A stretch of 64,000 nt of DNA from Solitalea canadensis DSM 3403 (GTDB lineage Bacteria; Bacteroidota; Bacteroidia; Sphingobacteriales; Sphingobacteriaceae), in assembly GCF_000242635.2 (NCBI RefSeq), contig NC_017770.1:1302001-1366000 (forward strand), given 5' to 3'. Positions 9,288-27,177 of this stretch are shown one piece after another (positions within the stretch are counted from its first letter, which is position 1; the number at the start of each line of letters is the position of its first letter). The notes below the pieces were generated by a model that searched no databases, was not told the origin of the DNA, and saw only the letters and a program-made list of their open reading frames with translations. Both the position numbers and the translations under genes were made by a program.

Positions 9288-9368
9288 CTCAATTAAAGGA
9301 ATAGAACACTTTTTATTCGCATAAAATCTCACAGCGTCTCAAATATGATTTTTGCATTTAAACGATTT

Positions 9369-9396
9369 GAGCGATAAAATAATCTTCTCGAATAGT
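9369..9396 (+). promoter_or_regulatory. 21-bp direct-repeat regulatory site, copy 1
   Basis: GAGCGATAAAAT at 9369 and GAATAGT at 9390 have half-site starts exactly 21 bp apart. The first half nearly repeats in the copies at 23660 (GAACAGTAAAAT) and 26792 (GAGGGATAAAAT). This is the distal of two copies in the 485-bp region between the AraC quartet and the collagen-like gene. Apart from these two sites and an inverted repeat (CTCAAAT 9338-9344 / ATTTGAG 9365-9371), I see nothing else in that gap. Confidence 0.6.
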
Positions 9397-9557
9397 CTGG
9401 TAGCATTATCAATCTCCTTCCTTTATTTAATCAGTTTAGTTGTTTTTAAGAATTATTAGTCCCTGTATTCGATTGAAGAACAGGTGGATATGTTTTGTTT
9501 GTGCACTTTATGTTTAGAGTCATTTTCAATGGAATGTCTAAAAAAAAGAAATTTTTT

Positions 9558-9585
9558 GAATGATTCGAACGTGTTTGCGAATAGT
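9558..9585 (+). promoter_or_regulatory. 21-bp direct-repeat regulatory site, copy 2
   Basis: GAATGAT at 9558 and GAATAGT at 9579 are 21 bp apart. A -7-like TAGCTTTT lies at 9601, 22 bp after the proximal half-site, which is where an activator overlapping the -33 position would act. The collagen-like ORF begins at 9773. Confidence 0.6.
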
Positions 9586-9772
9586 ATGGTAGCTACGAGT
9601 TAGCTTTTTTTGTAATGCTAAATGAAATTGAAATGAGTTGATAATTAATTAGTTAAAAACGAAGAGCTCTCAGTCTACTCAAATAGGATGGATGATTGGG
9701 TTCCAGGAAGTTAATGTCTTCAACATAACTTGAACCAAGATCCTTGATTTAAAATAATATACACTAAAATTT

Positions 9773-12700
9773 ATGACACCTTATTTAAAACGTGTTTTAC
9801 TCTCTATGCTATTTTCCGGGGTAATGCTGCTAGCTAAGGCGCAAAATGGAAATGTGGGAATTGGAACCACTACTCCTAACCAAGCTGCCGTGTTAGACGT
9901 AGTTGCTCCTAACAAGGGATTACTCATTCCACGAGTTTCACTTGCTAATATCAAGGATAGAGTAACTATTCCAAATCCTGTTGAAGCTTTATTAGTATAT
10001 AATACCAATAAAGACATTGCAAACGGAAATGGTTTAGGTTTTTATTATTGGAGTGGGCCAAATGGTTCGCCTGTAAATGAATGGATTTATTTAACGCCAA
10101 ACGGGACTTCTTCGTCCGCTGATGGATCAAAAATCTTTAATGGATCAGGCATTCCGTCCGTTACAATAGGTAAAAACAGTGATTTATATATTGACAATAA
10201 TTCAGGAAACTACTATCAAAAAGATAGTCGTGGGAATTGGAATTTAGCTGGTAACCTAAAAGGCCCTCAAGGCTTAAAAGGAGATCCGGGAGTGGTAGGT
10301 GTTCAGGGAATGGCAGGCACCAGTGGCACTCCGGGCACTCCAGGCACACCGGGAGGTCCCGGAGAAGGAGTTACCATTGTAACTAATGATTCAGGTACAT
10401 GGGTGTATAACCCAACCACCAATACATGGACTAATATTAACGGTGCTCAAGGCCCGCAAGGTGAGCAAGGTTTGGTGGGAGCACAAGGCCCGCAAGGTCC
10501 TCAAGGCTTAAAAGGAGATCCGGGAGTGGTAGGTGTTCAGGGTATGGCTGGCACCAGTGGCACTCCGGGTACTCCAGGCACACCGGGAGGTCCCGGAGAA
10601 GGAGTTACCATTGTAACTAATGATTCAGGTACATGGGTGTATAACCCAACCACCAATACATGGACTAATATCAATGGCGCTAAAGGCGACAAGGGCGATA
10701 AAGGAGAAATGGGTTATGCGGGAGGTAACGGCCAACCGGGTGCAGCAGGCTTAGATGGGTCGATCAATGTGTACGTAGATCAAACCACCAACACCGTTTA
10801 CGTACGTGATCCGAACAATCCGGATAACTGGATTCCGATTAACGGCGCTAAAGGTGCTAAAGGAGATAAGGGAGATAAAGGAGAAATGGGCTATGCGGGA
10901 GGTAACGGCCAACCGGGTGCAGCAGGCTTGGACGGATCGATCAACGTGTATGTAGATCAAACCACCAACACCGTTTACGTCCGTGACCCGAACAATCCGG
11001 ATAACTGGATTCCGATTAACGGCGCTAAAGGTGCTAAAGGAGATAAGGGTGACAAAGGAGAAATGGGCTATGCGGGAGGTAACGGCCAACCGGGTGCAGC
11101 AGGCTTGGACGGATCGATCAACGTGTATGTAGATCAAACTACTAATACCGTTTATGTACGTGACCCGAATAATCCGGATAACTGGATTCCGATTAACGGC
11201 GCCAAAGGAGATAAGGGTGATCCGGGAGTGGTAGGTGTTCAGGGAATGGCAGGCACCAGTGGCACTCCGGGTACTCCAGGCACACCGGGAGGTCCCGGAG
11301 AAGGAGTTACCATTGTAACTAATGATTCAGGTACATGGGTGTATAACCCAACCACCAATACATGGACTAATATTAACGGTGCACAAGGCCCGCAAGGTGA
11401 GCAAGGTTTGGTGGGAGCACAAGGCCCGCAAGGTCCTCAAGGCTTAAAAGGAGATCCGGGAGTGGTAGGTGTTCAGGGTATGGCTGGCACCAGTGGCACT
11501 CCGGGTACTCCAGGCACACCGGGAGGTCCCGGAGAAGGAGTTACCATTGTAACTAATGATTCAGGTACATGGGTGTACAACCCAACCACCAATACATGGA
11601 CTAATATCAATGGCGCTAAAGGCGACAAGGGCGATAAAGGAGAAATGGGTTATGCGGGAGGTAACGGCCAACCGGGTGCAGCAGGCTTAGATGGGTCGAT
11701 CAATGTGTACGTAGATCAAACCACCAACACCGTTTACGTACGTGATCCGAACAATCCGGATAACTGGATTCCGATTAACGGCGCTAAAGGTGCTAAAGGA
11801 GATAAGGGAGATAAAGGAGAAATGGGCTATGCGGGAGGTAACGGCCAACCGGGTGCAGCAGGCTTGGACGGATCGATCAACGTGTATGTAGATCAAACCA
11901 CCAACACCGTTTACGTCCGTGACCCGAACAATCCGGATAACTGGATTCCGATTAACGGCGCTAAAGGTGCTAAAGGAGATAAGGGTGACAAAGGAGAAAT
12001 GGGCTATGCGGGAGGTAACGGCCAACCGGGTGCAGCAGGCTTGGACGGATCGATCAACGTGTATGTAGATCAAACTACTAATACCGTTTATGTACGTGAC
12101 CCGAATAATCCGGATAACTGGATTCCGATTAACGGCGCCAAAGGAGATAAGGGTGATCCGGGAGTGGTAGGTGTTCAGGGAATGGCTGGCACCAGTGGCA
12201 CTCCGGGTACTCCAGGCACACCGGGAGGTCCCGGAGAAGGAGTTACCATTGTAACTAATGATTCAGGTACATGGGTGTATAACCCAACCACCAATACATG
12301 GACTAATATTAACGGTGCACAAGGCCCGCAAGGTCCTCAAGGCTTAAAAGGAGATCCGGGAGTGGTAGGTGTTCAGGGAATGGCAGGCACCAGTGGCACT
12401 CCGGGTACTCCAGGCACACCGGGAGGTCCCGGAGAAGGAGTTACCATTGTAACTAATGATTCAGGTACATGGGTGTATAACCCAACCACCAATACATGGA
12501 CTAATATTAACGGTGCTCAAGGCCCGCAAGGTGAGCAAGGTTTGGTGGGAGCACAAGGCCCGCAAGGTCCTCAAGGCTTAAAAGGAGATCCGGGAGTGGT
12601 AGGTGTTCAGGGAATGGCAGGCACCAGTGGCACTCCGGGTACTCCAGGCACACCGGGAGGTCCCGGAGAAGGAGTTACCATTGTAACTAATGATTCAGGT

Positions 12701-14863
12701 ACATGGGTGTACAACCCAACCACCAATACATGGACTAATATTAACGGTGCTCAAGGCCCGCAAGGTGAGCAAGGTTTGGTGGGAGCACAAGGCCCGCAAG
12801 GTCCTCAAGGCTTAAAAGGAGATCCGGGAGTGGTAGGTGTTCAGGGAATGGCAGGCACCAGTGGCACTCCGGGCACTCCGGGCACACCGGGAGGTCCCGG
12901 AGAAGGAGTTACCATTGTAACTAATGATTCAGGTACATGGGTGTATAACCCAACCTCCAATACATGGACCAAGATTAATGGTCCTCAGGGAGAACAAGGT
13001 CCGAAAGGTATTGATGGAACAAATGGATTAGATGGTAAAGGGATCAGTGGTACTAGCATTGATGTTAATGGTAATCTGATTATTACTTATACAGATGGAA
13101 CAACGACAGATGCCGGTAAAGTAGTTGGTCCGAAAGGTATTGATGGAACAAATGGATTAGATGGTAAAGGGATCAGTGGTACTAGCATTGATGTTAATGG
13201 TAATCTGATTATTACTTATACAGATGGTACAAAAACAGATGCCGGTAAAGTGATAGGACCACAGGGGCCACAAGGTGAACAAGGTCCGCAAGGTCCGGTA
13301 GGACCTCCACCAACAACAGGAGCGGGTACACTTTCTGGTGCTAATTTGATAACAGTTAGTGATGGCGCTAATGCAGTGTTTAAAAATAATACAATCAGTT
13401 TGACAGGAGGTTCAGATGGTCAGCTATTGCAGAGTGTTGGAACAACTCCAACATGGGTTGATGCCAATACTGTGGTAAAAGGTAATTCATCAGTAACCAG
13501 TCCTAAATCTACGGTAACAGTTACTGGTACAAACACAGTTCTTGGTGCTACAACAGTAGATATTACTCCTGGAAGTGGTAATACAATTATGACAACCGAC
13601 GGATCTGGTAATGTAGTATGGAGTACACAGGTTCCAATAGCGATTACTGGTAATAACTCGGTAAGTAGTCCGAATGCCACTATCAATGTATCAGGAACCA
13701 ATACTGTGTTAGGCGCTACTACCGTGGATATTAAGCCAGGAGCAAATAACACTATGATGATGACTAATAATAGTGGTGTAGTAACCTGGGTAGATCCGGC
13801 AACTGTTAACACCAAAGGAGATAACCTCGGTAACCACGTTGCTACTCAGAATTTAAACATGAGCGGTAACAACATAAATAATATTGCCAAAGCCAGTACT
13901 GTAAATCTTTCTGTTAGTAACGGTGCTGCTATGGGCAAGGTAGCTGTATCAGATGCTACAGGTAATATTATCTGGACAGACGCAACTGCATTACAGACGG
14001 TGGATTGGAAATTAAATGGTAATAAGAACGGAGCAGTTAAAACATTGGGGACAACGGATAATTATGATCTGCCGTTAATAACCAATAATATAGAAAGAGT
14101 CAGATTAATAACTCCTGTAACAGCTTCTGATACAGCAGAATTTAAGTTAGGTTCTGGTTCCGGTAAATACACTCGTTTATCCTTTGGCAATTTTTCTACT
14201 TCAACACCATCTGTATCACATATACGTCTCTTCAGTGGAGCATATGAGAGTATTTACGGCTTTGGAGTATCAAGCGGTCAACTTAATTATAGTTCTGGTC
14301 AGGGGTCGCACGTGTTTTATACCGGACCGTATAATGCATTATCACAAAAAATGATAATTACAAATTCAGGAAAGGTAGGAATAGGAACTTCAAATCCATC
14401 TGAATTATTAGATGTTGCAGGAGATGCTAAAATAGCTAATAAAATTACGACTCAATATGCTGCGATAACCAAAGGCTTTAATGGAGTGGGAGCAAACACA
14501 GGTTCTGTGGCAACATCTGCAGACGCAAATGGTAATGTGATTTGGAAGAATTCTCAGGATCTTGTTTTGGTAAAATATGTAAAACGAATCTCTGCCAATT
14601 ATACCGTCGACTTTGCAATCGATGATGTGATATTGGTTGATGCATCCAACGGAAGCGTGTCTGTGGGAATTCCAACAACAGGGGCAGTATCCGGCAGAGT
14701 ACTTACCATTAAACGTGTTGATACTTCTTCAAATTCTGTAATTATTGATTTTACTGCAGGATTCGTGGACGAAACTGATCACCTAATCAGTGTAGGGCAA
14801 AAGATAACCTACCAGATTATCGCTGAGAGTTCAACCAAATGGCAAACTATTTCAAGATTCTAA
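9773..14863 (+). CDS. Very large collagen-like secreted repeat protein
   Basis: This 1696-residue protein has a signal peptide (MTPYLKRVLLSMLFSGVMLLAKAQ) and an N-terminal head (VGIGTTTPNQAAVLDVVAP, NKGLLIPRVSLANIKD) shared with the next three genes. A long collagen-like Gly-X-Y region runs from about residue 165 to 1180. The C-terminal part repeats the NIERVRL / GIGTSNPSELLDV theme and ends in a beta-rich domain. The collagen region is built from two cassettes. A (GVVGVQGMAGTSGTPGTPGT, then a W-rich NDSGTWVYNPTTNTW insert) occurs 8 times. B (GDKGDKGEMGYAGGNGQPGA, then INVYVDQTTNTVYV) occurs 6 times. The order is A2B3A2B3A4, followed by two GKGISGTSIDVNGN units. It probably forms trimeric surface fibres. 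No T9SS sorting domain is obvious at its C-terminus, so the export route is open. Two 21-bp direct-repeat sites lie upstream. Confidence 0.9.
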   Translation: MTPYLKRVLLSMLFSGVMLLAKAQNGNVGIGTTTPNQAAVLDVVAPNKGLLIPRVSLANIKDRVTIPNPVEALLVYNTNKDIANGNGLGFYYWSGPNGSPVNEWIYLTPNGTSSSADGSKIFNGSGIPSVTIGKNSDLYIDNNSGNYYQKDSRGNWNLAGNLKGPQGLKGDPGVVGVQGMAGTSGTPGTPGTPGGPGEGVTIVTNDSGTWVYNPTTNTWTNINGAQGPQGEQGLVGAQGPQGPQGLKGDPGVVGVQGMAGTSGTPGTPGTPGGPGEGVTIVTNDSGTWVYNPTTNTWTNINGAKGDKGDKGEMGYAGGNGQPGAAGLDGSINVYVDQTTNTVYVRDPNNPDNWIPINGAKGAKGDKGDKGEMGYAGGNGQPGAAGLDGSINVYVDQTTNTVYVRDPNNPDNWIPINGAKGAKGDKGDKGEMGYAGGNGQPGAAGLDGSINVYVDQTTNTVYVRDPNNPDNWIPINGAKGDKGDPGVVGVQGMAGTSGTPGTPGTPGGPGEGVTIVTNDSGTWVYNPTTNTWTNINGAQGPQGEQGLVGAQGPQGPQGLKGDPGVVGVQGMAGTSGTPGTPGTPGGPGEGVTIVTNDSGTWVYNPTTNTWTNINGAKGDKGDKGEMGYAGGNGQPGAAGLDGSINVYVDQTTNTVYVRDPNNPDNWIPINGAKGAKGDKGDKGEMGYAGGNGQPGAAGLDGSINVYVDQTTNTVYVRDPNNPDNWIPINGAKGAKGDKGDKGEMGYAGGNGQPGAAGLDGSINVYVDQTTNTVYVRDPNNPDNWIPINGAKGDKGDPGVVGVQGMAGTSGTPGTPGTPGGPGEGVTIVTNDSGTWVYNPTTNTWTNINGAQGPQGPQGLKGDPGVVGVQGMAGTSGTPGTPGTPGGPGEGVTIVTNDSGTWVYNPTTNTWTNINGAQGPQGEQGLVGAQGPQGPQGLKGDPGVVGVQGMAGTSGTPGTPGTPGGPGEGVTIVTNDSGTWVYNPTTNTWTNINGAQGPQGEQGLVGAQGPQGPQGLKGDPGVVGVQGMAGTSGTPGTPGTPGGPGEGVTIVTNDSGTWVYNPTSNTWTKINGPQGEQGPKGIDGTNGLDGKGISGTSIDVNGNLIITYTDGTTTDAGKVVGPKGIDGTNGLDGKGISGTSIDVNGNLIITYTDGTKTDAGKVIGPQGPQGEQGPQGPVGPPPTTGAGTLSGANLITVSDGANAVFKNNTISLTGGSDGQLLQSVGTTPTWVDANTVVKGNSSVTSPKSTVTVTGTNTVLGATTVDITPGSGNTIMTTDGSGNVVWSTQVPIAITGNNSVSSPNATINVSGTNTVLGATTVDIKPGANNTMMMTNNSGVVTWVDPATVNTKGDNLGNHVATQNLNMSGNNINNIAKASTVNLSVSNGAAMGKVAVSDATGNIIWTDATALQTVDWKLNGNKNGAVKTLGTTDNYDLPLITNNIERVRLITPVTASDTAEFKLGSGSGKYTRLSFGNFSTSTPSVSHIRLFSGAYESIYGFGVSSGQLNYSSGQGSHVFYTGPYNALSQKMIITNSGKVGIGTSNPSELLDVAGDAKIANKITTQYAAITKGFNGVGANTGSVATSADANGNVIWKNSQDLVLVKYVKRISANYTVDFAIDDVILVDASNGSVSVGIPTTGAVSGRVLTIKRVDTSSNSVIIDFTAGFVDETDHLISVGQKITYQIIAESSTKWQTISRF
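10283..12154 (+). repeat. 936-bp intragenic tandem duplication
   Basis: 10283-11218 and 11219-12154 are near-identical head-to-tail copies (A-A-B-B-B cassette sets), differing at only a few positions that I noticed. Landmarks such as GATCCGGGAGTGG recur at 10283, 10517, 11219, 11453 and 12155, exactly 936 bp apart in corresponding positions. Beyond 12154 there are four more A cassettes, with steps of 198, 234 and 234 bp. The length is a multiple of 3, so gain or loss of a copy keeps the frame. Confidence 0.9.
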
Positions 14864-14875
14864 ACTAAGCTGATT

Positions 14876-14909
14876 GAAGTGATTGCTTAGTTGTAATCGC
14901 TTCTTTTTT
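14876..14909 (+). terminator. Intrinsic terminator after the collagen-like gene
   Basis: GAAGTGATT pairs with AATCGCTTC (one G-U), with a 10-nt loop, followed by TTTTTT. It may insulate the collagen-like gene or attenuate read-through into the downstream genes. Confidence 0.65.
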
Positions 14910-14942
14910 AGATAATTAAAATTGTTTATTTAATAGAGAAGA

Positions 14943-16040
14943 ATGAAAATACTGCTTAAGGTAACGGTTTTTGTATTGAGTTTAGCATATAGCAGCTCGT
15001 CACTTGCTCAGGTGGGTATGGTTGCAAATAATCCGGATAAATCGGCTGTGTTGGACATGAGAGCTACTTCAAACCAAGGACTTTTAATTCCAAATGTAAA
15101 TCTCAAAAGTACTACCGACAAAACGATAATTACGAATCCTGTACAAAGTTTGTTGGTTTACAATACGAATGCTGCGATAATAGGGGATGGTGCAGAAGGA
15201 GAAGGTTTTTATTTCTGGGATACCAATAGATGGGTTAAGCTGATCGCAACTAATGATACTATTGGATGGGGTTTATCGGGTAATGGGAATGTTAATTCTG
15301 ATGTTCATTTTGTTGGTACGACTGATTCAAAGGATTGGATAGTTAAGACAAATAATACGGAAAGACTGCGTGTGCTTGCCGAAGGTAATATAGGTATAGG
15401 CACAAATGCACCAATCAATTCACTTCATGTTAAATCGAATTCAGATCCTGTAAGGTTAGAAGGTTTGGCAACCTCAACCGATCCATCTGACATAACACTT
15501 GTGGCTGATGGAAACGGTGTTGTTCGTAAGGCTAAGGCCGGTGCATCTTATGTGGCCTTTCTCCAATCAGCTGTTCCCCAAACTTATAAAATTACTTCAT
15601 TTGGAGCCAGTTCTGCAACCAATTCTGATCCAATTACATTTACCAATGATGAGGTAAAGGTAAATACTATTGGTTCCTGGGATGGCTCTTCAGTGTTTAC
15701 AGTTAATGAGAATGGTTTATATGAAGTCTATGCCAGTGCTAATTTTATCAGTGTAAATGGACCTGATGCCGATTTGAATATATCTCTTGAATTACAACAA
15801 GAGACTGGTAATGGATGGCAAACTGTTTTAGGAGCAAGGACAATATACTCTAAAAGTTGGGCCAACCTGACAATCAGCTGCCCCTTGGGAGGAATAGTAA
15901 GTTTAACTGCAGGAACAAAACTAAAACTTGTTATTCATAGAATGGGTGGAGGTATTGTTACTGGTGGCAAAGTAGGAGCTGATTGTGGTGTGCATGGTGT
16001 TACTTTTTCGAAGGTGCTGAAACTTAATAAAATAGGATAA
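14943..16040 (+). CDS. Secreted protein with tail-fibre-like head and C1q/TNF-like C-terminus, paralogue 1
   Basis: This 365-residue protein has a signal peptide (ending SSSLAQ) and the shared head (VGMVANNPDKSAVLDMRATS, QGLLIPNVNL, GFYFWDTNRWVKL). A middle repeat follows (DWIVKTNNTERLRVLAEGNI, GIGTNAP), resembling modules common in Bacteroidota fibre proteins. The last ~150 residues (FTVNENGLYEVYASANFI, LNISLELQQETGNGWQTVLG, GTKLKLVIHRMGG) have the strand pattern of a C1q/TNF-like jelly roll. That assignment is by pattern only. It sits downstream of the collagen-like gene, after a terminator, and has two close paralogues following. Confidence 0.8.
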   Translation: MKILLKVTVFVLSLAYSSSSLAQVGMVANNPDKSAVLDMRATSNQGLLIPNVNLKSTTDKTIITNPVQSLLVYNTNAAIIGDGAEGEGFYFWDTNRWVKLIATNDTIGWGLSGNGNVNSDVHFVGTTDSKDWIVKTNNTERLRVLAEGNIGIGTNAPINSLHVKSNSDPVRLEGLATSTDPSDITLVADGNGVVRKAKAGASYVAFLQSAVPQTYKITSFGASSATNSDPITFTNDEVKVNTIGSWDGSSVFTVNENGLYEVYASANFISVNGPDADLNISLELQQETGNGWQTVLGARTIYSKSWANLTISCPLGGIVSLTAGTKLKLVIHRMGGGIVTGGKVGADCGVHGVTFSKVLKLNKIG

Positions 16041-16129
16041 CGGCATAGAGAAGCAAATTAAAATTGCTTCAGGATGAGCCAAATTAAAGCTAAAAGATGT
16101 TCACACTTAAATTCAATAGTACAAGGTAT

Positions 16130-17248
16130 ATGAAATTTACATATGGTATAAGACTGGCAATATTATTCTTTTTTATTAATACTGCTGCTTTTGCCCAGGT
16201 CGGAATGATTTCAAATACACCGGACAGATCTGCTGCATTAGATTTGAAAGCAACTAACAAACAAGGCGTATTGATTCCTCAGGTAAATCTTAATAGTACT
16301 ACGCATAAATCAGTGATTGCAGGAGGTGCACCGGTCAAAAGCTTGTTAGTCTATAATACTAATTCCGGAATTACGGGAAAAGGTGCCGCCGGTGAGGGGT
16401 TCTATTATTGGGATGCAACCATGTGGCAAAAACTGGTTACTCCGGCTGATACAACCGTTTGGAGTTTATATGGTAACAGTAATACAGATCCTTCAGTAAA
16501 TTTTATCGGTACAACAAATTCAAATGATTGGATTGTGAAAACCAATAATATTGAAAGAATGCGTGTAAATGCCAATGGTAATATTGGTATGGGTGATAGT
16601 GATAATGATATTACAAATACATTGGATGTAAAAGCGCCTGCACTTCCTGTTCGGTTCGAGACATTATCGATAACCAATGCTTCTAATGCTATACCTCTTG
16701 TAGTAAATGCTTCCGGTGTTGTAAAGAAGGCTGCTGTGGGTCTTCCTCATGTAGCCTATTTGCAATCATCAACAATACAGAATCTTTCGTTTGATGCTTT
16801 TAGTATGTATTCTGGATGGTATTCTCCTGCTGTATTGAGTTTTGTAACAGGAGATATTCTCCTGAATAATATAGGCACCTGGAATGTAGCAGATAATTCA
16901 TTAACAGTGACTAATGCAGGAGAGTATGATGTAACCGGAGCCTTTAATTTTTATACAGGTTCTACAGGTGGTCCAATGGCTATTAATGTAGTGATTCAAG
17001 CGTACAATACTTCTACAAGTACATGGGATGATGTGGTGGGAAGCAGAGCCATGTACAATACTAATGGGCATACACAAACTTGCAGTGTATCCGGAGTTGG
17101 GGTGTTATTAAATGGGAACACAAAAATCAGATTTGTTGCGTACAGGGGGGCAAAATTCTACGCTGTGAATAATGATGTGAAAGCGAATGTAGATCCTGCC
17201 AATGGTATCACTTATTCTAAATATTTAAAAGTTGCCCGAATACGATAA
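16130..17248 (+). CDS. Secreted protein with tail-fibre-like head and C1q/TNF-like C-terminus, paralogue 2
   Basis: This 372-residue protein has a signal peptide (MKFTYGIRLAILFFFINTAA), then VGMISNTPDRSAALDLKATN, QGVLIPQVNL, DWIVKTNNIERMRVNANGNI, and the putative jelly-roll C-terminus (LTVTNAGEYDVTGAFNFYTG, WDDVVGSRAMYNTN, GNTKIRFVAYRG). I prefer the ATG at 16130, preceded by ACAAGG, to the in-frame ATG at 16097, because it puts the signal peptide at the N-terminus. A 7-bp hairpin (GAAGCAA/TTGCTTC, about 16054-16074) lies between it and the previous gene. Confidence 0.8.
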   Translation: MKFTYGIRLAILFFFINTAAFAQVGMISNTPDRSAALDLKATNKQGVLIPQVNLNSTTHKSVIAGGAPVKSLLVYNTNSGITGKGAAGEGFYYWDATMWQKLVTPADTTVWSLYGNSNTDPSVNFIGTTNSNDWIVKTNNIERMRVNANGNIGMGDSDNDITNTLDVKAPALPVRFETLSITNASNAIPLVVNASGVVKKAAVGLPHVAYLQSSTIQNLSFDAFSMYSGWYSPAVLSFVTGDILLNNIGTWNVADNSLTVTNAGEYDVTGAFNFYTGSTGGPMAINVVIQAYNTSTSTWDDVVGSRAMYNTNGHTQTCSVSGVGVLLNGNTKIRFVAYRGAKFYAVNNDVKANVDPANGITYSKYLKVARIR

Positions 17249-17304
17249 TTGGAAACACGGATTTTAATTAAAAATGTAGTTGCAGCCTCTTAAATCTTGT
17301 TAAC

Positions 17305-18390: not shown

Positions 18391-18436
18391 TCAGGAATCT
18401 ATCTGGTTGCGACAATTGAAAGCTAATTCATTAAAA

Positions 18437-19651: not shown

Positions 19652-19655
19652 GGAA

Positions 19656-20633
19656 ATGAAAGAAATTAAAATAGTAATGGTTGTTGCTCTGATGCTTTTG
19701 CTAAGAAGTCCTATATGGGCTCAGCAAAATGCCCAGTTTAGTCAGTACATGTTTAATGGCTTATACATAAACCCGGCTTATGCCGGATATAAAGAGCAAT
19801 TATATGCCCATTCATTCTATCGTATGCAGTGGGTTGGATTTCCTGGTGCTCCTAAAACCTTCACAATTGGAGTAGATGGTACTGCCAATAATGATAAAAT
19901 GGGTTTGGGTTTAATTTTAGCGAATGATAAAATCGGATCTGCAAATTCAACTTCGGCCATGTTTAATTATGCATACAAAATACAAACAGGTGAAGATGCA
20001 AAGCTGAGTTTTGGTTTGGCGGCCGGAGCCAAAAATTATATGATTAAAGGACGTGATTTGCAAAGTACTGTTGAGTATGATCCGTCTGTTCCTGATGAAA
20101 ATCTTTCAGCTTGGTTACCGGATGTAAATGCCGGGATTTATTATAGTTCAGATCGTTTATATGCCGGATTATCTGTAATGAACCTGCTATCATCCTATAT
20201 AAATATAGATGCGGATAAGCGAAATTATGTTCCTAAACAAGCCCGTCATTATTTTTTAACAGCTGGAGCTCTATTTCACTTAAATGAATCATTGAGTTTA
20301 AAACCTTCATTTTTAATTAAAGAAGAGTTTAAAGGCCCTACCAATATGGATTTGAATGCTATGCTGTTGATTAATGATCGCATCTGGTTAGGAGGCTCTT
20401 ATCGTACAGGAATAAACATCTGGAAGAAGAATAACTTGCAAAGCAATTTGTTAAAACAGGATGCCTTTGCCTTTCTAGCTGAAGTATATCCAACAGAACG
20501 CTTACGCATCGGTTATTCATTTGATTATGATATGACAACATTACGGACATATAATAATGGAAGTCACGAGATTTCGTTAGGATACTATTTTACCAGTTCA
20601 AAAGTACGATTGTTATCACCTCGTTACTTCTAA
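19656..20633 (+). CDS. PorP/SprF-family type IX secretion outer-membrane protein
   Basis: This 325-residue protein has a signal peptide (ending PIWAQ) and the PorP/SprF signature AQFSQYMFNGLYINPAYAGY near the mature N-terminus, followed by alternating beta strands (YRMQWVGFPGAPKTFTIGVD, GLGLILANDKIG) and a C-terminal strand ending in Phe. Family members are outer-membrane barrels that dock type B cargo to the T9SS translocon; SprF is needed for SprB in Flavobacterium. The 4-bp spacing from the upstream cargo gene and 16 bp to the OmpA gene show one operon. Confidence 0.94.
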   Translation: MKEIKIVMVVALMLLLRSPIWAQQNAQFSQYMFNGLYINPAYAGYKEQLYAHSFYRMQWVGFPGAPKTFTIGVDGTANNDKMGLGLILANDKIGSANSTSAMFNYAYKIQTGEDAKLSFGLAAGAKNYMIKGRDLQSTVEYDPSVPDENLSAWLPDVNAGIYYSSDRLYAGLSVMNLLSSYINIDADKRNYVPKQARHYFLTAGALFHLNESLSLKPSFLIKEEFKGPTNMDLNAMLLINDRIWLGGSYRTGINIWKKNNLQSNLLKQDAFAFLAEVYPTERLRIGYSFDYDMTTLRTYNNGSHEISLGYYFTSSKVRLLSPRYF

Positions 20634-20649
20634 TCGACCCCACTTTATT

Positions 20650-22608
20650 ATGAAAAAATACATATTGATATTGACAGGATTGATTTTAATAAGTCAATCC
20701 ACATTAGCGCAAACAGGAAAATCGAAAGGAGATGAGCAATATCAACTTTACAATTATTCTAAGGCAGTAGTTTACTACCAAGATGCTTATAAGGATAAAA
20801 AAAGTTACTACTTGGCACACCAGATAGCCAGTTGTTATCATTTTATGAACGACTATAAATTTGCTGAATCCTGGTTTGCCGAATCCGTTGGCTATCAGGA
20901 TCATAGTCTGGAAGATGAGTTGCACTATGCAGAAGCTTTGCGGAATAACTCAAAATATGGAGAGGCTAAACAAGTATATACAACCTATGCCAAGAAGAAA
21001 AACGTAAGCTACGACGACCAAGTGATTTGGATAGGTTCCTGTGACTCGGCTTTGGTATGGATGAAAGTTCCGGAACCTTACAATGTAGTTAATCAGACTG
21101 GGGTAAATTCTCTTGGCTCGGATTGGGGATTGGTGAAGTATAAAGATCAGTTGGTTTTCTGCTCAGACGATAAGGCCAAGGTGAAAATTAGCAATGTGAA
21201 CCCATTCTTATCATTGGATATTGTGCATAAAAGTCTTGATAAAGAAACCTATGGGTGGACCGGCAGAGGTTATCTGAATATTTTCACCACCAATGATGGT
21301 GACAGTGCCATTCATCCGTTGTTTAAAGATGAGGACAAACGTACCTATCATATTGGATCACCTTGTTTTAACGCAACTGGAGATGAAGTGTTTTATACTG
21401 TAACCCGTTTAGTTAAAAATCCGAAAAATAACTTTCTGGTAAATAAAGCTTATACGGTTAAATTGGAGATATTCTCACGCACCCGTTCGGCTGGAGATTG
21501 GAGTAAACCGGTTGCCTTTCCATACAACAATGCATTAGAATATTCTGTTGGTGATCCGTACATAACCCCTAATGGTAAGTATCTGTATTTTAGCTCGGAT
21601 ATGCCAGGCGGATTAGGAGGGACTGATATTTACTATTGTAAACGCAATTTAGATGGAGGTTGGGATGCCCCTCAAAACCTGGGAGTGGTTATTAATACTG
21701 CTGGTAATGAACGTTTTCCACGCTTTTCTGCCGACGATACATTCTATTTTTCGTCGGATGGCCGGATAGGCATGGGAGGGTTGGATATCTATGCCGCCCA
21801 AACAACTGATAAAGGCTTTGGACGACCAGTGTCGCTAAAGTACCCGATCAATTCGCCACAGGATGATTTTGCCATTTGGTTTACTGGCGATTATACAGGT
21901 TATTTATCTTCAAACCGGGACGGTGGCTTAGGGGATGATGATATTTATTTGTTTAGCTTAAAAGATATTAAGATCCGTTTGGAAGGTATAGTGGTAGATA
22001 AAAAAAGTGGACTACCACTGGAAAATGCTGTTGTTGTTCTGCAGAATGTAAGAACAGGGGAACAGTATAAATATGTAAGTGGTAAGGACGGAAAGTTTGC
22101 CTTTGAGCTAGGTCCTAAAAGTAATTATAAGATACTTGCCAGTAAAACTGATTACATGTCGGTTGGTAAAGAAGGAATTACCACAGAGGGTATCAACGAG
22201 TCTTGTACGCTAAAAGAAAGATTGGAATTGGCTTTAGATCGTATCACTAAAGATCCTATCAGAATTGAGAATATCTATTACAACTTCGATAAATGGGATT
22301 TAAGAGCCGATGCGCTTGTTGAATTGGACAAGTTGGTGAAATTGTTGAAAGAGAATCCAACGATAGAGATTGAGTTAGGTTCACATACCGACTCAAGAGG
22401 TAACGACAATTACAACCTGAAACTTTCTCAGCGTCGTGCCGAATCAGTTGTAAATTACCTGATCAAGAATGGAATAGATAAAGGTCGTTTGGTAGCCAAA
22501 GGTTACGGTGAAACTCAATTAATAAACAAATGTTCGAATGGTGTAAAATGTTCAGAAGCTGAACACCAGGCCAACAGAAGAACTGAGTTTATAATTGTAA
22601 GATATTAA
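20650..22608 (+). CDS. PorE-like OmpA-family T9SS protein (TPR, beta-propeller, CRD, OmpA)
   Basis: This 652-residue protein has a signal peptide and then TPR-like helices (about 25-130: YQLYNYSKAVVYYQDAYKDK, DYKFAESWFAESV). PD40/WD40-type propeller repeats follow (about 150-430: GKYLYFSSDMPGGLGGTDIY, RFPRFSADDTFYFSSDG, GYLSSNRDGGLGDDDIYLF). A carboxypeptidase-regulatory-like domain covers about 445-520 (LEGIVVDKKSGLPLENAVVV). A C-terminal OmpA peptidoglycan-binding domain ends the protein (YYNFDKWDLRADALVELDKL, NYNLKLSQRRAESVVNYL). This domain order matches PorE of Porphyromonas. It probably anchors the locus-specific T9SS machinery to peptidoglycan. It is the last gene of the operon. Confidence 0.92.
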   Translation: MKKYILILTGLILISQSTLAQTGKSKGDEQYQLYNYSKAVVYYQDAYKDKKSYYLAHQIASCYHFMNDYKFAESWFAESVGYQDHSLEDELHYAEALRNNSKYGEAKQVYTTYAKKKNVSYDDQVIWIGSCDSALVWMKVPEPYNVVNQTGVNSLGSDWGLVKYKDQLVFCSDDKAKVKISNVNPFLSLDIVHKSLDKETYGWTGRGYLNIFTTNDGDSAIHPLFKDEDKRTYHIGSPCFNATGDEVFYTVTRLVKNPKNNFLVNKAYTVKLEIFSRTRSAGDWSKPVAFPYNNALEYSVGDPYITPNGKYLYFSSDMPGGLGGTDIYYCKRNLDGGWDAPQNLGVVINTAGNERFPRFSADDTFYFSSDGRIGMGGLDIYAAQTTDKGFGRPVSLKYPINSPQDDFAIWFTGDYTGYLSSNRDGGLGDDDIYLFSLKDIKIRLEGIVVDKKSGLPLENAVVVLQNVRTGEQYKYVSGKDGKFAFELGPKSNYKILASKTDYMSVGKEGITTEGINESCTLKERLELALDRITKDPIRIENIYYNFDKWDLRADALVELDKLVKLLKENPTIEIELGSHTDSRGNDNYNLKLSQRRAESVVNYLIKNGIDKGRLVAKGYGETQLINKCSNGVKCSEAEHQANRRTEFIIVRY

Positions 22609-22631
22609 TTCGTATCTATCTATATTAAATG

Positions 22632-22665
22632 ATCCGGAGCAGACTTCTGCTTCCGGATTTTCTGT
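22632..22665 (+). terminator. Intrinsic terminator of the T9SS operon
   Basis: ATCCGG-AGCAG pairs with CTGCT-TCCGGAT (one bulge), followed by TTTCTGTTTT, 24 bp after the OmpA-family stop codon. Confidence 0.8.
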
Positions 22666-22692
22666 TTTATTAGGGGTATTCAACTTCCAATT

Positions 22693-22956
22693 TTAATGCT
22701 TAATAATTTCCAATGCTTCACCTATGTCAATTCTCTTGAGAAGGGCTTCAATGTGATAATTATAAAGCTTAAGTTTTTTGAGTAGTTCAGATAAATTAAT
22801 TTCTGAAGAAAGAAATAAATGTGAGATCTGATCAATTGGGGTGAGGTAAGCAATCTGATTGTTTTTGTTACTATTTAGGTACTGCTGTATGCAGCCTAAA
22901 ATAATGCTCCTGCCTTCTAACAGTGCATTTAAAAGTTCTAATTGAGCGTTTGTCAT
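22693..22956 (-). CDS. Small helical protein of unknown function
   Basis: 87 residues, predicted largely helical, Leu/Ile-rich (NAQLELLNALLEGRSIILGC; LSELLKKLKLYNYHIEALLK). There is no signal peptide and no recognised family. It is transcribed toward the terminator of the preceding operon and has an ATG start. A small DNA-free regulator or structural protein are both possible. I call it coding from its regular composition and isolated position. Confidence 0.5.
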   Translation of the reverse strand: MTNAQLELLNALLEGRSIILGCIQQYLNSNKNNQIAYLTPIDQISHLFLSSEINLSELLKKLKLYNYHIEALLKRIDIGEALEIIKH

Positions 22957-23039
22957 AAAGATAATGCTTAGGTTAATGCCCAGTTGTTAAATCGTTCTTA
23001 AAATTCTTGCGAATTGAAACCTAATAAAATTAATACAGG

Positions 23040-23061
23040 TATAACTATGCCAATAGTTATA
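23040..23061. promoter_or_regulatory. 9-bp-arm inverted repeat upstream of the HTH gene
   Basis: TATAACTAT and ATAGTTATA form perfect arms around a 4-bp centre, and part of the arm (GGTATAAC) recurs just after. It lies 150 bp before the HTH gene at 23211 and 84 bp from the start of the divergent small gene, so it could be an operator for either. Confidence 0.4.
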
Positions 23062-23210
23062 GGTATAACATTAGCTCATAAACTAATCAAAGAACTGATT
23101 TAAAAAGTACATCAATGATGTTGTGTTTTTATTGCTTTATTGTATTGTATTTTTAACTATACTACATTTTATGTTTTAAAATTAATTCATTTTTCTGGCA
23201 AAATTGTGAC

Positions 23211-23573
23211 ATGTTGAAAAATAGAGGTGAAATATTAGAAAGAGTGGTGCGTCAATCGAACATGTCTGTTGTGGCAATAGCACGTCAAATGGGAGTAGAA
23301 CGCTCAACGGTTTATCGACATTTTACACTACCTGATTTAGATGCTGGTTTAATACTTAGATATTCAAAGGTTTTAAAGCATGATTTTACAGAAGAGTTTC
23401 CAGAATTATTTTCTGATTTAAAGTCCATCATAAATGAGCCCGATCCAAGTTATGGTATTACCAAAAGTTATGGGGAATTATTAAATGAAAGAGATTACTG
23501 GAAAGATAAATACATTACACTTTTAGAACGTTATAATGAGCTAATTATTAAAACGTTTTCTAATAAACATTAG
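23211..23573 (+). CDS. Helix-turn-helix DNA-binding protein
   Basis: This 120-residue protein has an N-terminal HTH (about 8-50: ILERVVRQSNMSVVAIARQM, GVERSTVYRHFTLPDLD) followed by HDFTEEFPEL and a charged coiled-coil C-terminus (LLNERDYWKDKYITLLERYN). The same layout (HTH, HDFS.EFPEL, coiled coil) is common in small Bacteroidota regulators, probably homodimers. It is monocistronic. Targets are unknown; the inverted repeat at 23040-23061 is a candidate self-operator. Confidence 0.8.
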   Translation: MLKNRGEILERVVRQSNMSVVAIARQMGVERSTVYRHFTLPDLDAGLILRYSKVLKHDFTEEFPELFSDLKSIINEPDPSYGITKSYGELLNERDYWKDKYITLLERYNELIIKTFSNKH

Positions 23574-23659
23574 CCATGTCCATTTGTTAAATATCCAATC
23601 ACTATACTAGAATTAGATAAAAAAATGCCATTTATCAATTTTTACAGTTTGATCAAATT

Positions 23660-23687
23660 GAACAGTAAAATACCTTTTTCGAATAGT
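23660..23687 (+). promoter_or_regulatory. 21-bp direct-repeat regulatory site, copy 3 (best match)
   Basis: GAACAGTAAAAT at 23660 and GAATAGTAAAAT at 23681 agree at 11 of 12 positions and are exactly 21 bp apart. A -7-like TAGATTTC follows at 23700. The only thing downstream before the next gene is the structured element at 23716-23822. Confidence 0.7.
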
Positions 23688-23715
23688 AAAATTCAGTTTT
23701 AGATTTCATATTTAT

Positions 23716-23822
23716 ATAGTTGTCCGCTTGAGCTCAAAGAGGTTTCAACTATCTATTTAATGTTTTTGCGCAAGGTTTATTTATTTAAAAAGCTGCTTTG
23801 ACCCTAGCAGCTTTTTATTTTT
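23716..23822 (+). ncRNA. Putative structured small RNA with its own terminator
   Basis: No ORF is present. ATAGTTG (23716-23722) pairs with CAACTAT (23746-23752), enclosing the palindrome TTGAGCTCAA (23728-23737). The element ends in a strong terminator: AAAGCTGCT / AGCAGCTTT with TTTTATTTTTT (about 23787-23822). It is preceded by the direct-repeat site at 23660 and a -7-like box at 23700, which makes an independent transcript likely. Confidence 0.45.
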
Positions 23823-23901
23823 TAGTCAAGTTGTGGTAATTGTAAGAGTTATAAGAACTAGCTGTTTACTATAATTCTATTGTTTACCGAATGCACAAAT
23901 T

Positions 23902-23929
23902 GAGTATTTTTTTGTTCGATGTGAATAGT
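23902..23929 (+). promoter_or_regulatory. 21-bp direct-repeat regulatory site, copy 4 (upstream of sigma factor)
   Basis: GAGTATT at 23902 and GAATAGT at 23923 are 21 bp apart. A -7-like TATCTTTC lies at 23942, 19 bp after the proximal half-site, the same distance as in copy 3. The next gene is the ECF sigma factor. Confidence 0.55.
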
Positions 23930-24047
23930 CGTTGTTTTTAATATCTTTCATTTTTGTAACGCGATTTAAGCTTTAAGTCAGTGTTACAGATAGTTATTGC
24001 ATTTAAGCTTTAGGATATCGCATTTAATGAAAAGTGGGAGAGTTACA

Positions 24048-24620
24048 ATGCAATCATTAGAAGAAGATTTCAAGATCATAGAAGATATAAAAAACGGCGA
24101 TACAAATAAATATAAAATATTGGTTGAGAAATATGAAAGAGGACTTTTCTTTCACATTTATAAAAAAGTATTAGATAGAGATATCGCAGAAGAGTTAACG
24201 CATGAATGTTTTATCAAAGCATTTTGCAATCTGACTAAGTACAAACCGTTATTCAATTTTAACACATGGTTATACACTATTGCAACGAATCATTCATTAG
24301 ACTACCTAAAAAAAGAAAAGAAGTTTCGTGCTAAATATTCGTTTCAATCACTTGCAGAAGAGTCTTTTGGAATAACGGAATTCGCTACCAATACTAATAA
24401 TCCGGAACTATCATTAATTAAGAAACAATACTCAACCTTCATCCGCGAATCACTTTTTAAACTTCCGGAAATGTACAGCATTCCTTTACGTCTTCGATTC
24501 ATTAAAGAATATACCTATGATGAAATATGTGCTGAACTAAACCTTAGTATGGTAATCGTTAAATCAAGAATTTTTAGAGGAAAAAGATTACTTCAGGAAA
24601 AATTAGCCTGTTTGTCTTAG
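24048..24620 (+). CDS. RNA polymerase sigma-70 factor, ECF subfamily
   Basis: This 190-residue protein has sigma region 2 (about 10-80: DTNKYKILVEKYERGLFFHI, DIAEELTHECFIKAF, FNTWLYTIATNHSLDYL) and region 4 (about 120-185: LPEMYSIPLRLRFIKEYTYD, EICAELNLSMVIVKSRIFRG). The frame continues upstream to a TTG at 23997. ATG 24048, preceded by GGGAG, and ATG 24027 are the plausible starts. No anti-sigma gene follows; the next gene encodes a small lipoprotein. A 21-bp direct-repeat site upstream suggests AraC-type control. Confidence 0.9.
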   Translation: MQSLEEDFKIIEDIKNGDTNKYKILVEKYERGLFFHIYKKVLDRDIAEELTHECFIKAFCNLTKYKPLFNFNTWLYTIATNHSLDYLKKEKKFRAKYSFQSLAEESFGITEFATNTNNPELSLIKKQYSTFIRESLFKLPEMYSIPLRLRFIKEYTYDEICAELNLSMVIVKSRIFRGKRLLQEKLACLS

Positions 24621-24624
24621 CTAT

Positions 24625-25035
24625 ATGTTTTGTCCTTCAATAGCTACTATCAAGGTTAACCTGATTGGTTGGCTATTATGTGTTTTATTTAGTTGCAATA
24701 ATCATTCATCATTACAGGATACCCACAATGAATCGCAAAGATCAGAATGGTGTGGTACCTATGTTGGAGTTATTACTGAAGAGAGAGGACTCGTTCGGAT
24801 TAAGTTGAAACTAAGATCTAACGGATATTACACAATGGAGCAGAAGGATGTTAAAGTTAATGCCAATTGCATTATTACTTCATATGTGTGGAAAGTTGTT
24901 GATAGTAACAAAACAGTTCATCTATATAAAACTGACGATACTGAATTAAGCCGAATAAGTTATATAGATAGTTCAAAAATCGAAATCTCCTTTAACAAAG
25001 ATGATAAAAGATATTTTCTTTATAAGAAACCTTAA
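24625..25035 (+). CDS. Small lipoprotein, NlpE-like pattern
   Basis: This 136-residue protein has a hydrophobic N-terminus ending in a lipobox-like LFSC (Cys near residue 24). The mature part (WCGTYVGVITEERGLVRIKL, LRSNGYYTMEQ) resembles the small beta-barrel fold of NlpE-type lipoproteins, but key CXXC residues are lacking, so the family is uncertain. It starts 4 bp after the sigma-factor stop, so it is co-transcribed and may act in the same envelope response (inference). Confidence 0.65.
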   Translation: MFCPSIATIKVNLIGWLLCVLFSCNNHSSLQDTHNESQRSEWCGTYVGVITEERGLVRIKLKLRSNGYYTMEQKDVKVNANCIITSYVWKVVDSNKTVHLYKTDDTELSRISYIDSSKIEISFNKDDKRYFLYKKP

Positions 25036-25194
25036 TCCTTATTATCTAATTCAACTCTAACTTAAAATCAAACAAGAGTTTAAGTCTGCATAAGAAAAAT
25101 CAAAAAACACTATTCTGGTTATAAAATGTCACATTCGAACAATCAAATTACTTCTTGTTTACCCTTATTAACTTAAAAAAATCTGCTATGTATT

Positions 25195-25341
25195 AAGTTC
25201 AATAATTTTCTAAATTATTTTTATAGCACTTGCGTATATACCGAAGGCCGTTGTGTTTATAAAGTAGGGTCGAAAGAATGCTGGGTTATCAATGATAATT
25301 GTTACAGAATAGGAAAAGCTTTAAATGGTTTTATGGTTTGA
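25195..25341 (+). other. Possible Cys-rich mini-ORF without a standard start
   Basis: The frame from the AAG at 25195 (open back to a CTG at 25183) encodes about 48 residues with four cysteines (STCVYTEGRCVYKVGSKECW, INDNCYRIGK), stopping at 25339-25341. There is no ATG/GTG/TTG at its start. It may be a relic or chance. Otherwise the 445-bp gap 25036-25480 holds only the direct-repeat site at 25398. Confidence 0.15.
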
Positions 25342-25397
25342 AAACCGGTGAATAATGAAATTAATAAGACTTTCTTATGTTTAAAAATGAACAATTT

Positions 25398-25425
25398 GAG
25401 CTGTTTTTTAATTTTTTCGAATACT
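25398..25425 (+). promoter_or_regulatory. 21-bp direct-repeat regulatory site, copy 5 (upstream of beta-barrel gene)
   Basis: GAGCTGT at 25398 and GAATACT at 25419 are 21 bp apart. This is the weakest copy (GAATACT instead of GAATAGT), but it keeps the TTTTTCGAAT context seen at 23681. The beta-barrel gene starts at 25481. Confidence 0.45.
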
Positions 25426-25480
25426 GTACTTGTTTAAATAAATGTTGATTTGTGTATAATATTTATCTAAATAAAGTAAT

Positions 25481-26095
25481 ATGAAAAAAATGTTAATCGC
25501 AGTGGGACTAGTGTTTTTTGGTTTTGCTGCAAGTGCTCAGGTATCAAAAGGGACAGTAACAGTAGGTGGTAATGTTGGATTTGGAACTTCGAAAACAAAA
25601 GATGCAGACGATAAAAGCACCACGTTTTCTATTCAACCTCAAGTTGGTTATTTTCTCAGCGATAAATTAGAAGGTTATATAAAGCTTGGATATGTGAATG
25701 ATTCAAATCAAGAAATGCAAGGTACTGTTTTAGGTAAAAAGAACACTGATCAGTTTGGTGGAGGTGTCGGATTAAGAAGATACTTCATGGTGAGTGATAA
25801 TGTAGCAATTTTTGCTGGTCCGGAACTGAGTTACTATTCAGGTTCAACCAAATTTGAACCCAAAGGAGGAAGCTCAGAAAAGCTTTATAATACAAATACC
25901 TTTAATGCAAATATCAATGCAGGAGTGGGAGTGTTTTTTACCAAAAATATAGGCTTAGTAGCCGGTTTGGGAGTTCTAAGTTTTGAGTCAGAAACTCATA
26001 AACCTAATGGTGGTGGTGACAAATCTACCAACACTTCATTTAATTTACTTGCCAATAATGCTCCATTTGCACTAGGAATTGTATTCCATTTTTAA
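25481..26095 (+). CDS. Outer-membrane beta-barrel protein
   Basis: This 204-residue protein has a signal peptide (MKKMLIAVGLVFFGFAASAQ). Its alternating amphipathic strands and glycine-rich turns (TVTVGGNVGFGTSKTKDADD, FSIQPQVGYFLSDKLEGYIK, FGGGVGLRRYFMVSDNVAIF) end in a C-terminal aromatic strand (FALGIVFHF), as in 8-strand OmpW/OmpX-like barrels. Function is unknown. It is monocistronic, with a direct-repeat site 56 bp upstream of the start. Confidence 0.85.
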   Translation: MKKMLIAVGLVFFGFAASAQVSKGTVTVGGNVGFGTSKTKDADDKSTTFSIQPQVGYFLSDKLEGYIKLGYVNDSNQEMQGTVLGKKNTDQFGGGVGLRRYFMVSDNVAIFAGPELSYYSGSTKFEPKGGSSEKLYNTNTFNANINAGVGVFFTKNIGLVAGLGVLSFESETHKPNGGGDKSTNTSFNLLANNAPFALGIVFHF

Positions 26096-26145
26096 AAACG
26101 AATAATAAGAAACTGAATGTTCCTTTAGGTTATATTTTGCACACG

Positions 26146-26178
26146 ACCCTCGGTGTTCTTAAATGTCGAGGGTTATTT
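26146..26178 (+). terminator. Probable terminator of the beta-barrel gene
   Basis: ACCCTCG (26146-26152) pairs with CGAGGGT (26167-26173) across a 14-nt loop. The T-tract is short (TATTTA), so termination may be partial. Confidence 0.45.
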
Positions 26179-26222
26179 ACAAGAATGTTTTATTCAAAAA
26201 TTACAAATAATAAAAAAATATC

Positions 26223-26405
26223 ATGGAAAAATTTAATGCTTTAAAAGCCCTTATTGTTTCGACTGAAGAAGATGCTTTTAAATTCTACACAAATGGTAAC
26301 GGTGCGGCTGGAACACGAGTTAGAAAGGCAATGATGGAGGTTAAAAAACTTGCACAGGAAATCAGAAATGAAGTGACTGAAGTTAAGCACAAGAGTAAAG
26401 CCTAA
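26223..26405 (+). CDS. Histone H1-like (Hc1-type) nucleoid protein
   Basis: This 60-residue basic helical protein (EKFNALKALIVSTEEDAFKF, GTRVRKAMMEVKKLAQEIRN, ending VKHKSKA) matches the short histone H1-like proteins common in Bacteroidota. They are thought to bind DNA through their Lys/Arg-rich helices. It is monocistronic, with a strong terminator after it. Confidence 0.85.
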   Translation: MEKFNALKALIVSTEEDAFKFYTNGNGAAGTRVRKAMMEVKKLAQEIRNEVTEVKHKSKA

Positions 26406-26428
26406 GATTTCGAATAATAATCATAGTG

Positions 26429-26466
26429 CGCCCGGTATTAGTTAAATGATAATGCCGGGCTTTTTC
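26429..26466 (+). terminator. Intrinsic terminator of the histone-like gene
   Basis: GCCCGGTATTA pairs with TAATGCCGGGC (one G-U), with a 10-nt loop, followed by TTTTTC. Confidence 0.85.
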
Positions 26467-26540
26467 TTTACTGTGTTCTTGAAATCATTAGTAGTTAATG
26501 CTTTGTTTTATAATAATTAGATGAAAAAATGAATCAAATT

Positions 26541-26568
26541 GACTATTGTTTTAACTATTACGAATAGT
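26541..26568 (+). promoter_or_regulatory. 21-bp direct-repeat regulatory site, copy 6
   Basis: GACTATT at 26541 and GAATAGT at 26562 are 21 bp apart. Downstream there is no gene, only the structured element at 26641-26717. Confidence 0.55.
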
Positions 26569-26640
26569 ACTTAAGCTAAGATAAGTATTTATTTATAGTG
26601 ATTTAATTGCGCGGTATGCAAATAAATTAAGTTTTTGTTC

Positions 26641-26717
26641 TTCTCTATTTTTCTTTAGAGAAGGCAATTGGTCTCATGTGGGGACGCCCATTTTAATTGG
26701 GGTCCCCACTTTTTTTG
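26641..26717 (+). ncRNA. Putative structured small RNA with strong terminator
   Basis: Two hairpins and no ORF. TTCTCTA/TAGAGAA lies at about 26641-26663. A G-C-rich terminator, GTGGGGAC / GTCCCCAC with an inner CCC/GGG, lies at 26678-26710 and is followed by TTTTTTT. The previous gene already has its own terminator at 26429-26466, so this one needs another transcript. The 5' end is probably near 26590, after the direct-repeat site. Confidence 0.45.
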
Positions 26718-26791
26718 AAACCTATTATCTCTAATAAATTATCACCTCATCAAAAAAAAGCTTTTTTCTGATTTTGTGTCTTGGACTTTTT

Positions 26792-26819
26792 GAGGGATAA
26801 AATGTGTTATTTGAATAGT
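26792..26819 (+). promoter_or_regulatory. 21-bp direct-repeat regulatory site, copy 7
   Basis: GAGGGATAAAAT at 26792 and GAATAGT at 26813 are 21 bp apart. The 12-bp distal half differs from that of copy 1 (GAGCGATAAAAT) at one base, although the sites are 17 kb apart. Downstream is the structured element ending at 27108. Confidence 0.6.
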
Positions 26820-27009
26820 ATTCTGAATGTTTATAAAGAACTTATTTTAAAACTAAAGTAATTTGGCAATTTTTTACTTTCTCTAGTAAAATTAAGTATG
26901 GCCGAATTGAGTATTTATTTGTCTTTTAGGGTTAGAGGAATTAAGATCCTTATTTAATATTTGTAATACCAATTTGTTTTAAAGAGAGCGTAGAACAATT
27001 TTGGATTTA

Positions 27010-27173: not shown

Positions 27174-27177
27174 TAAT

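Follow-up and report, generated by a model that had tools for sequence, protein, structure and literature searches.

Group IV sigma factors, the extracytoplasmic function (ECF) factors, are recognized by having sigma2 and sigma4 domains only, with a linker of under ~50 residues, and their classical promoter boxes, AAC and CGT, are no longer considered defining (PMC8103513). A known link between such a factor and small RNAs (sRNAs) is the enterobacterial RpoE (sigma-E) regulon, which includes the sRNAs MicA and RybB (PMC1804206). Within the Bacteroidota, Flavobacterium psychrophilum SM6 has ECF-type promoters before an ECF gene, type IX secretion system (T9SS) genes, and one regulatory RNA, Rfp11 (PMC9723704), and the Porphyromonas gingivalis ECF SigP, which has two-component input and the suggested motif C(T)AAA(G/C/T)A(T)A(C)T(A/G)A, controls secretion genes (PMC4800418). 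In Bacteroides thetaiotaomicron, sRNAs such as BatR end in terminators and act on surface genes (PMC10861873), and according to a 2020 paper, no recognition motif was known for any alternative ECF of that species (PMC7366714). Here, we describe a 64,000-nucleotide stretch of the Solitalea canadensis DSM 3403 chromosome (NC_017770.1, positions 1,302,001 to 1,366,000; this whole stretch is called the window, and coordinates count from its first base), which holds seven copies of a two-box element, ACAAWTTGA-N18-CGAATAGT, one of them directly before an ECF gene. Among the papers that came up in searches for ECF promoters, for AraC sites, and for sRNAs driven by ECFs, we recognized none describing this ECF or its motif.

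With a probability of roughly 80%, the element is the promoter read by the ECF encoded at 23997-24620, as part of an autoregulated accessory regulon that would drive surface and membrane genes together with candidate sRNAs. ACAAWTTGA would serve as the -35 box and CGAATAGT as the -10 box, with transcription starting ~7 nt downstream. The ECF would transcribe its own gene and the adjoining lipoprotein-like gene, as well as genes for surface or membrane proteins (collagen-like, small outer-membrane barrel, RHS-repeat, DUF5684, and others), along with about seven small RNAs ending in terminators. The evidence, read from the sequence, lies in the element itself, its enrichment among the genomes searched, its placement, the terminators behind it, and the tandem pairing of sites, and from it we infer that this ECF is the reader.

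The seven window sites are where the first-pass annotation had put them, with 21 bp between half-sites in every case. They are listed here with the half-site starts and the E value from a profile that is described below.

9362-9396, + strand: site 1 (ACGATTTGA-N18-CGAATAGT; half-sites 9369/9390), upstream of the collagen-like gene; E 2.9e-6
9551-9585, + strand: site 2 (9558/9579), upstream of the collagen-like gene, the weakest of the seven; E 0.003, leave-one-out score 6 bits
23653-23687, + strand: site 3 (23660/23681), predicted promoter of candidate sRNA A; E 1.1e-6
23895-23929, + strand: site 4 (23902/23923), predicted promoter of the ECF sigma gene (autoregulation); E 4.3e-5
25391-25425, + strand: site 5 (25398/25419), predicted promoter of the beta-barrel gene; E 4.7e-6
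26534-26568, + strand: site 6 (26541/26562), predicted promoter of candidate sRNA B; E 6.1e-5
26785-26819, + strand: site 7 (26792/26813), predicted promoter of candidate sRNA C; E 4.3e-5

When the + strand of the window was scanned for TTGA followed by GAATAST at gaps of 8 to 39, gap 19 gave the seven sites (TTGA-N19-GAATAST, n = 7), no other gap from 8 to 27 gave a match, and gaps 28, 32, 34, and 38 gave one each; the minus strand has single matches at gaps 17, 19, 21, 27, and 29. The second box also reads as originally described, GAATAGT in 6/7 sites and GAATACT in 1/7 (at 25419). By itself, GAATAGT occurs 18 times in the window, with 11 copies on the + strand.

It is over the nature of the two boxes that we depart from the earlier interpretation, which took them for direct repeats bound by AraC-family proteins. 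An alignment of the seven window sites with seven further sites gives an asymmetric element laid out like a -35 and a -10 box, and its 18-base spacer contains more T toward the second box (63% vs. 42%). An AraC-type operator has two similar half-sites in the same orientation. Here, identity at the 21-bp offset is 80/224 (36%) without the two GA columns; with them it rises to 42%, which is the value at offset 26 and close to that at offset 12 (40%). Because a direct-repeat operator should have similar halves, while a promoter need not, the AraC direct-repeat reading is not supported.

Among the genomes searched, the element is enriched in this one. Allowing at most one mismatch, the 5.2-Mb genome has 10 copies and the reversed control none, whereas 59 relatives pooled have 3 copies (three genomes, one each) against 8 for the control, leaving 56 relatives without a match. 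We then used a profile built from 14 sites, with strict filters and up to 110 candidates scored per genome. It finds 16 sites in this genome at E ≤ 0.005: the 14 training sites and two others, at 3457887 (E 1.5e-4, 24.6 bits) and 2017678 (E 2.7e-4, 23.8 bits), the latter having a paralogue among the training sites and a spacer shortened by one base. None of the 59 relatives has a site at E ≤ 0.005, the best reaching 0.0054; at E ≤ 1, some match is present in 53/60 genomes. The proposal of a single regulon is supported in that a fixed-spacing element is enriched here and not in the 59 relatives, and 16/16 sites point at a transcription unit. Over the whole genome, TTGA-N15-23-GAATAST occurs 129 times vs. 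114 for the backward control, and among the 100 of these places that were listed, gap 19 accounts for 25 (7 of them window sites) and each of the eight other gaps for 5 to 14.

Placement points the same way. All 16 sites lie outside open reading frames (ORFs) of 100 aa or more, which in control loci is true of 54951/440508 strand positions (~12.5%, a slight underestimate, with ends left out). At nine of the 16, no terminator separates the site from the gene that it leads to. At the other seven, an intrinsic terminator lies 108-280 nt past the inferred start, and no ORF of at least 50 aa starts before it on the same strand; such a terminated ORF-free stretch follows 261/3000 random free control positions, in control loci that include the site regions. 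The first ORF begins 48-62 nt past the inferred start at the ECF, barrel, DUF5684, and L178 genes. (L063, L064, L169, L170, L172, L173, and L178 are labels of other loci in this genome, and coordinates given for them are locus-internal.) The true start codons at L063 and L173 must lie later, because the mechanical ORFs begin at +4 and -5 of the inferred transcription start. A strict sigma-A -7 box is found downstream of 0/15 sites, which we dropped as evidence because only 2/23 control genes carry one.

One predicted target is the sigma factor gene, which stands in the window with a small neighbor.

23997-24620, + strand: ECF sigma factor (Pfam Sigma70_r2 4.4e-11, Sigma70_r4_2 1.3e-8), starting at TTG 23997 or a later ATG
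24625-25035, + strand: lipoprotein-like protein of 136 aa, with a lipobox-like LFSC seen by eye

The protein has the domain content of a group IV factor, with Sigma70_r2 at 42-109, Sigma70_r4_2 at 153-199, and no region 3 reported. Site 4 is directly 5' of the gene, whose first possible start codon is 60 nt past the inferred transcription start, so the gene has the arrangement predicted for positive autoregulation, a trait that is common but not universal among ECFs. Among 398 other genomes of the family, the best matches to this ECF are 38-40% identical, and 0/394 other genomes of a class sample (which overlaps the family set) match at E ≤ 1e-34. A search among named genomes gave two ECF matches, 26% and 28% identical, with records near this genome possibly excluded. 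ECF matches as such are present in 59/59 relatives searched, compared with 3/59 for the element, and within this genome the window ECF finds 26 matches, itself included. The site before the ECF gene and the distribution both fit the window ECF as the reader. The lipoprotein-like neighbor had been suspected by eye of being NlpE-like, which found no support: at E 0.1 it has 0 Pfam families, and a mean predicted local distance difference test (pLDDT) score of 43 makes the structure model unusable.

Could a different ECF of this genome read the sites, with the ECF at 23997 merely one target in its cascade? ECF regulons can overlap (PMC9723704). Against this, five of the 16 sites lie within 3 kb of the gene at 23997-24620, the very ECF that lacks a close match elsewhere, and the single other ECF checked (G000:C1:2669816, 37% identical, with Pfam sigma domains) has no site in the surrounding 5 kb. 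We consider a cascade of this kind improbable.

The AraC-family proteins deserve the same scrutiny, since their genes are close at hand.

5052-9287, + strand: four tandem AraC-family paralogues (Pfam)

These paralogues, 27-36% identical to the third one, might recognize the element as two direct repeats 21 bp apart and so switch on its targets. They sit just upstream of sites 1 and 2, two helical turns amount to 21 bp, and a weak copy of the element (E 0.0125; 4911-4879, minus strand, within 4912-4873) is found in the divergent region before the AraC genes, between the cluster and the divergent gene. Their distribution is also compatible: one paralogue as query found itself and its three neighbors here and nothing at E ≤ 1e-15 in three congeners, where the element was not seen either. 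However, besides the unlike halves, the 16 sites at E ≤ 0.005 include none that is aimed at an AraC gene, and the ECF gene has the site instead; the element has a promoter layout, with short transcription units directly downstream. The weak copy itself faces away from the AraC cluster, toward a region poor in ORFs. Taken together, these points make binding by the AraC proteins highly improbable, and we return to the ECF as the reader.

Several observations weigh against the ECF promoter, and we gather them here. The boxes ACAAWTTGA and CGAATAGT differ from the classical ECF AAC (-35) and CGT (-10), although the -10 box does begin with CG. In genome-wide counts, the motif at three mismatches is no commoner than its reverse (68 vs. 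72), the short form at one mismatch is rarer than its reverse (36 vs. 63), and the short form has 7 exact matches vs. 5 for a form one base longer, so that the enrichment is confined to the top matches of the extended form. The ACAAW extension was itself picked after viewing the window sites and four L063/L064 sites. Because it was chosen post hoc, independent support comes from sites 830470 and 5092334, the upstream bases of which had not entered into that choice, and from profile site 3457887; weak candidates are not to be believed, because looser thresholds give no excess. No anti-sigma factor was recognized beside the ECF, where the adjacent 136-aa protein has no Pfam family at E 0.1 and may yet be an anti-sigma factor of an unfamiliar type; co-transcription with an anti-sigma factor is common for ECFs but does not define them. 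The ECFs of the relatives were counted as matches irrespective of orthology to the window ECF or to 2669816, and co-occurrence cannot separate an ECF from an AraC reader, because the AraC paralogues, like the element, were not seen in the three congeners.

The seven terminated units would begin at 23695, 26576, and 26827 in the window and at L063, L064, L170, and L173 elsewhere. We infer that RNAs are produced from them and are stable; those of the window would be as follows, with starts placed by the element.

23695-23825, + strand: candidate sRNA A, with an intrinsic terminator (12-bp stem, T run)
26576-26717, + strand: candidate sRNA B, with a strong terminator
26827-27107, + strand: candidate sRNA C, whose 3' part resembles the element at L170 3371-3542 (TAGAAGGTTTGGTTTAATT common to both)

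In units A to C, ORFs of at least 20 aa are few and short (20-26 aa), and the one in sRNA A, of 25 aa, overlaps the 5' end only; the L170 unit has a 57-aa ORF on the opposite strand. The first-pass annotation had called the three window units ORF-less structured elements. Their structure proves to be mainly that of the terminator hairpins, and with the terminator removed, few of the seven stretches fold better than shuffles. Those that do are L170 (z -3.2), L173 (z -2.4), and, marginally, sRNA B (26576-26677, z -1.85, compared with -5.8 with its terminator), whereas stretches A, C, D, and E fold no better than shuffles. The 3' domain common to sRNA C and the L170 unit has a mean column identity of 78%, and 6/29 predicted pairs are changed on both sides, 4 of them within the terminator, in an alignment of two sequences only. 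A match to RNA D in a congener lies inside a 672-aa ORF and was taken as chance.

None of the candidates belongs to an Rfam family at gathering level, where the only matches are one tRNA in the window and two in L064. Other matches, to E 5 in window 23600-27200 and to E 2 in the seven loci, all fall below the cut-offs. The only Bacteroides sRNA families among them, both far below threshold, are BTnc060 in L169 (30.5 bits vs. a cut-off of 228.9) and BTnc231, whose chance-level match covers sRNA B nearly exactly (26584-26712; 18.2 bits vs. 80.4, E 1.8). Two further observations concern these units. A weak site at L172 (3215-3060, minus strand; E 0.010) has ~110 nt and then a strong terminator behind it, possibly an eighth sRNA or a terminator shared by convergent genes. 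GAAGG, noticed post hoc and frequently located in a hairpin's 3' arm, stands before or within the terminator region at 26576, 26827, L170, L173, and L172.

How sites are arranged relative to one another suggests a recurring module, in which a site, its RNA, and a terminator would be followed ~200-250 bp on by a second site and a gene. Six co-oriented pairs account for 12 of the 16 sites, with distances of 189, 242, 251, 198, 209, and 254 bp; the first site leads to a terminated RNA in 5/6 pairs, and the second leads to a gene in 5/6. Identity within pairs is 42-68%, against a mean of 61%, and on the whole does not exceed that between other sites, so recent duplication of a single site does not appear to account for the pairs. 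The modules at L063 and L064 are paralogous, and what they have retained is the RNA core, the second box, and the terminator but not most of the linker; one-base gaps inside the RNA disfavor a coding role. At L063, where the first box has changed bases and a 17-base spacer, the module may be decaying, before an ORF that seems to lack its N-terminal part. Directly upstream of the sRNA-gene module at L064 is an ISL3-type transposase ORF (3134-3964, minus strand; Pfam 2.6e-60).

The module invites another explanation of the terminated units, as attenuated leaders of the next gene with a conditional terminator. That the second site leads to a gene in 5/6 pairs suits a leader, as read-through from the first site would add to expression of that gene. 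Yet the second site is a complete predicted promoter 3' of the terminator and would bypass attenuation, and what follows differs between sRNA C and the L170 unit, despite their likeness. Leaders are therefore unlikely, and we favor sRNAs: at seven sites, the predicted promoter of the sigma factor is combined with an intrinsic terminator, the arrangement of sigma-E-type sRNA genes. By analogy with the enterobacterial sigma-E sRNAs, the RNAs may act in trans on envelope mRNAs. A more speculative scenario, to which we give a modest chance, is that the ECF is recently acquired or lineage specific and that surface genes are paired, in the tandem module, with their own sigma-driven RNA, so that turning on a surface gene would at once release an RNA silencing competing surface products.

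The protein-coding targets, beyond the ECF gene, are as follows.

9773-14863, + strand: collagen-like protein, target of sites 1 and 2 (Pfam Collagen 1.4e-62)
25481-26095, + strand: outer-membrane beta-barrel protein, target of site 5 (Pfam OMP_b-brl)
L063: RHS-repeat protein (Pfam RHS_repeat 3.9e-6)
L064: 661-aa protein (0 Pfam families at E 0.01)
L169: DUF5684 protein
L173: TPR-repeat protein
L178: 180-aa protein without a Pfam family

By eye, and without Pfam support, the L064 protein could be the N-terminal part of an RHS-like protein. L169 has three tandem DUF5684 paralogues (3471-4977, minus strand), with a site before the middle one only. The collagen-like gene (window 10001-14000) has a G+C content of 47-50%, compared with 31-33% around the AraC and ECF genes, and its two sites have the bases 3' of the -10 box in common (CGAATAGTnTGGTAGC; 9389-9402 and 9578-9591). 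The genome also encodes PorP/SprF, CHU_C, and Hc1 proteins, in keeping with its place in the Bacteroidota.

For one ECF, a likely promoter and 16 candidate start sites can now be named from sequence. Compared with the systems described above, this regulon resembles that of RpoE in joining an envelope-linked ECF to small RNAs, here candidates predicted from sequence. It is unlike RpoE in its boxes, in having no recognized adjacent anti-sigma factor, and in belonging to another phylum, as well as in having about seven sRNA promoters among 16 sites and tandem sRNA-gene modules. With SM6 it shares ECF-type promoters in a member of the Bacteroidota, including before an ECF gene and an RNA; SM6, in contrast, combines an ECF/anti-sigma pair with a CGT -10 box, where the element here has CGAATAGT. 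SigP is likewise a Bacteroidota ECF and differs in its motif and its two-component input, and the part of its description drawn on here includes no sRNA output. The candidate sRNAs also differ from BatR, which has a -7 promoter box. If the regulon is as we propose, nearly half of its outputs are small RNAs, which would make it a Bacteroidota counterpart of the sigma-E/sRNA envelope circuit.

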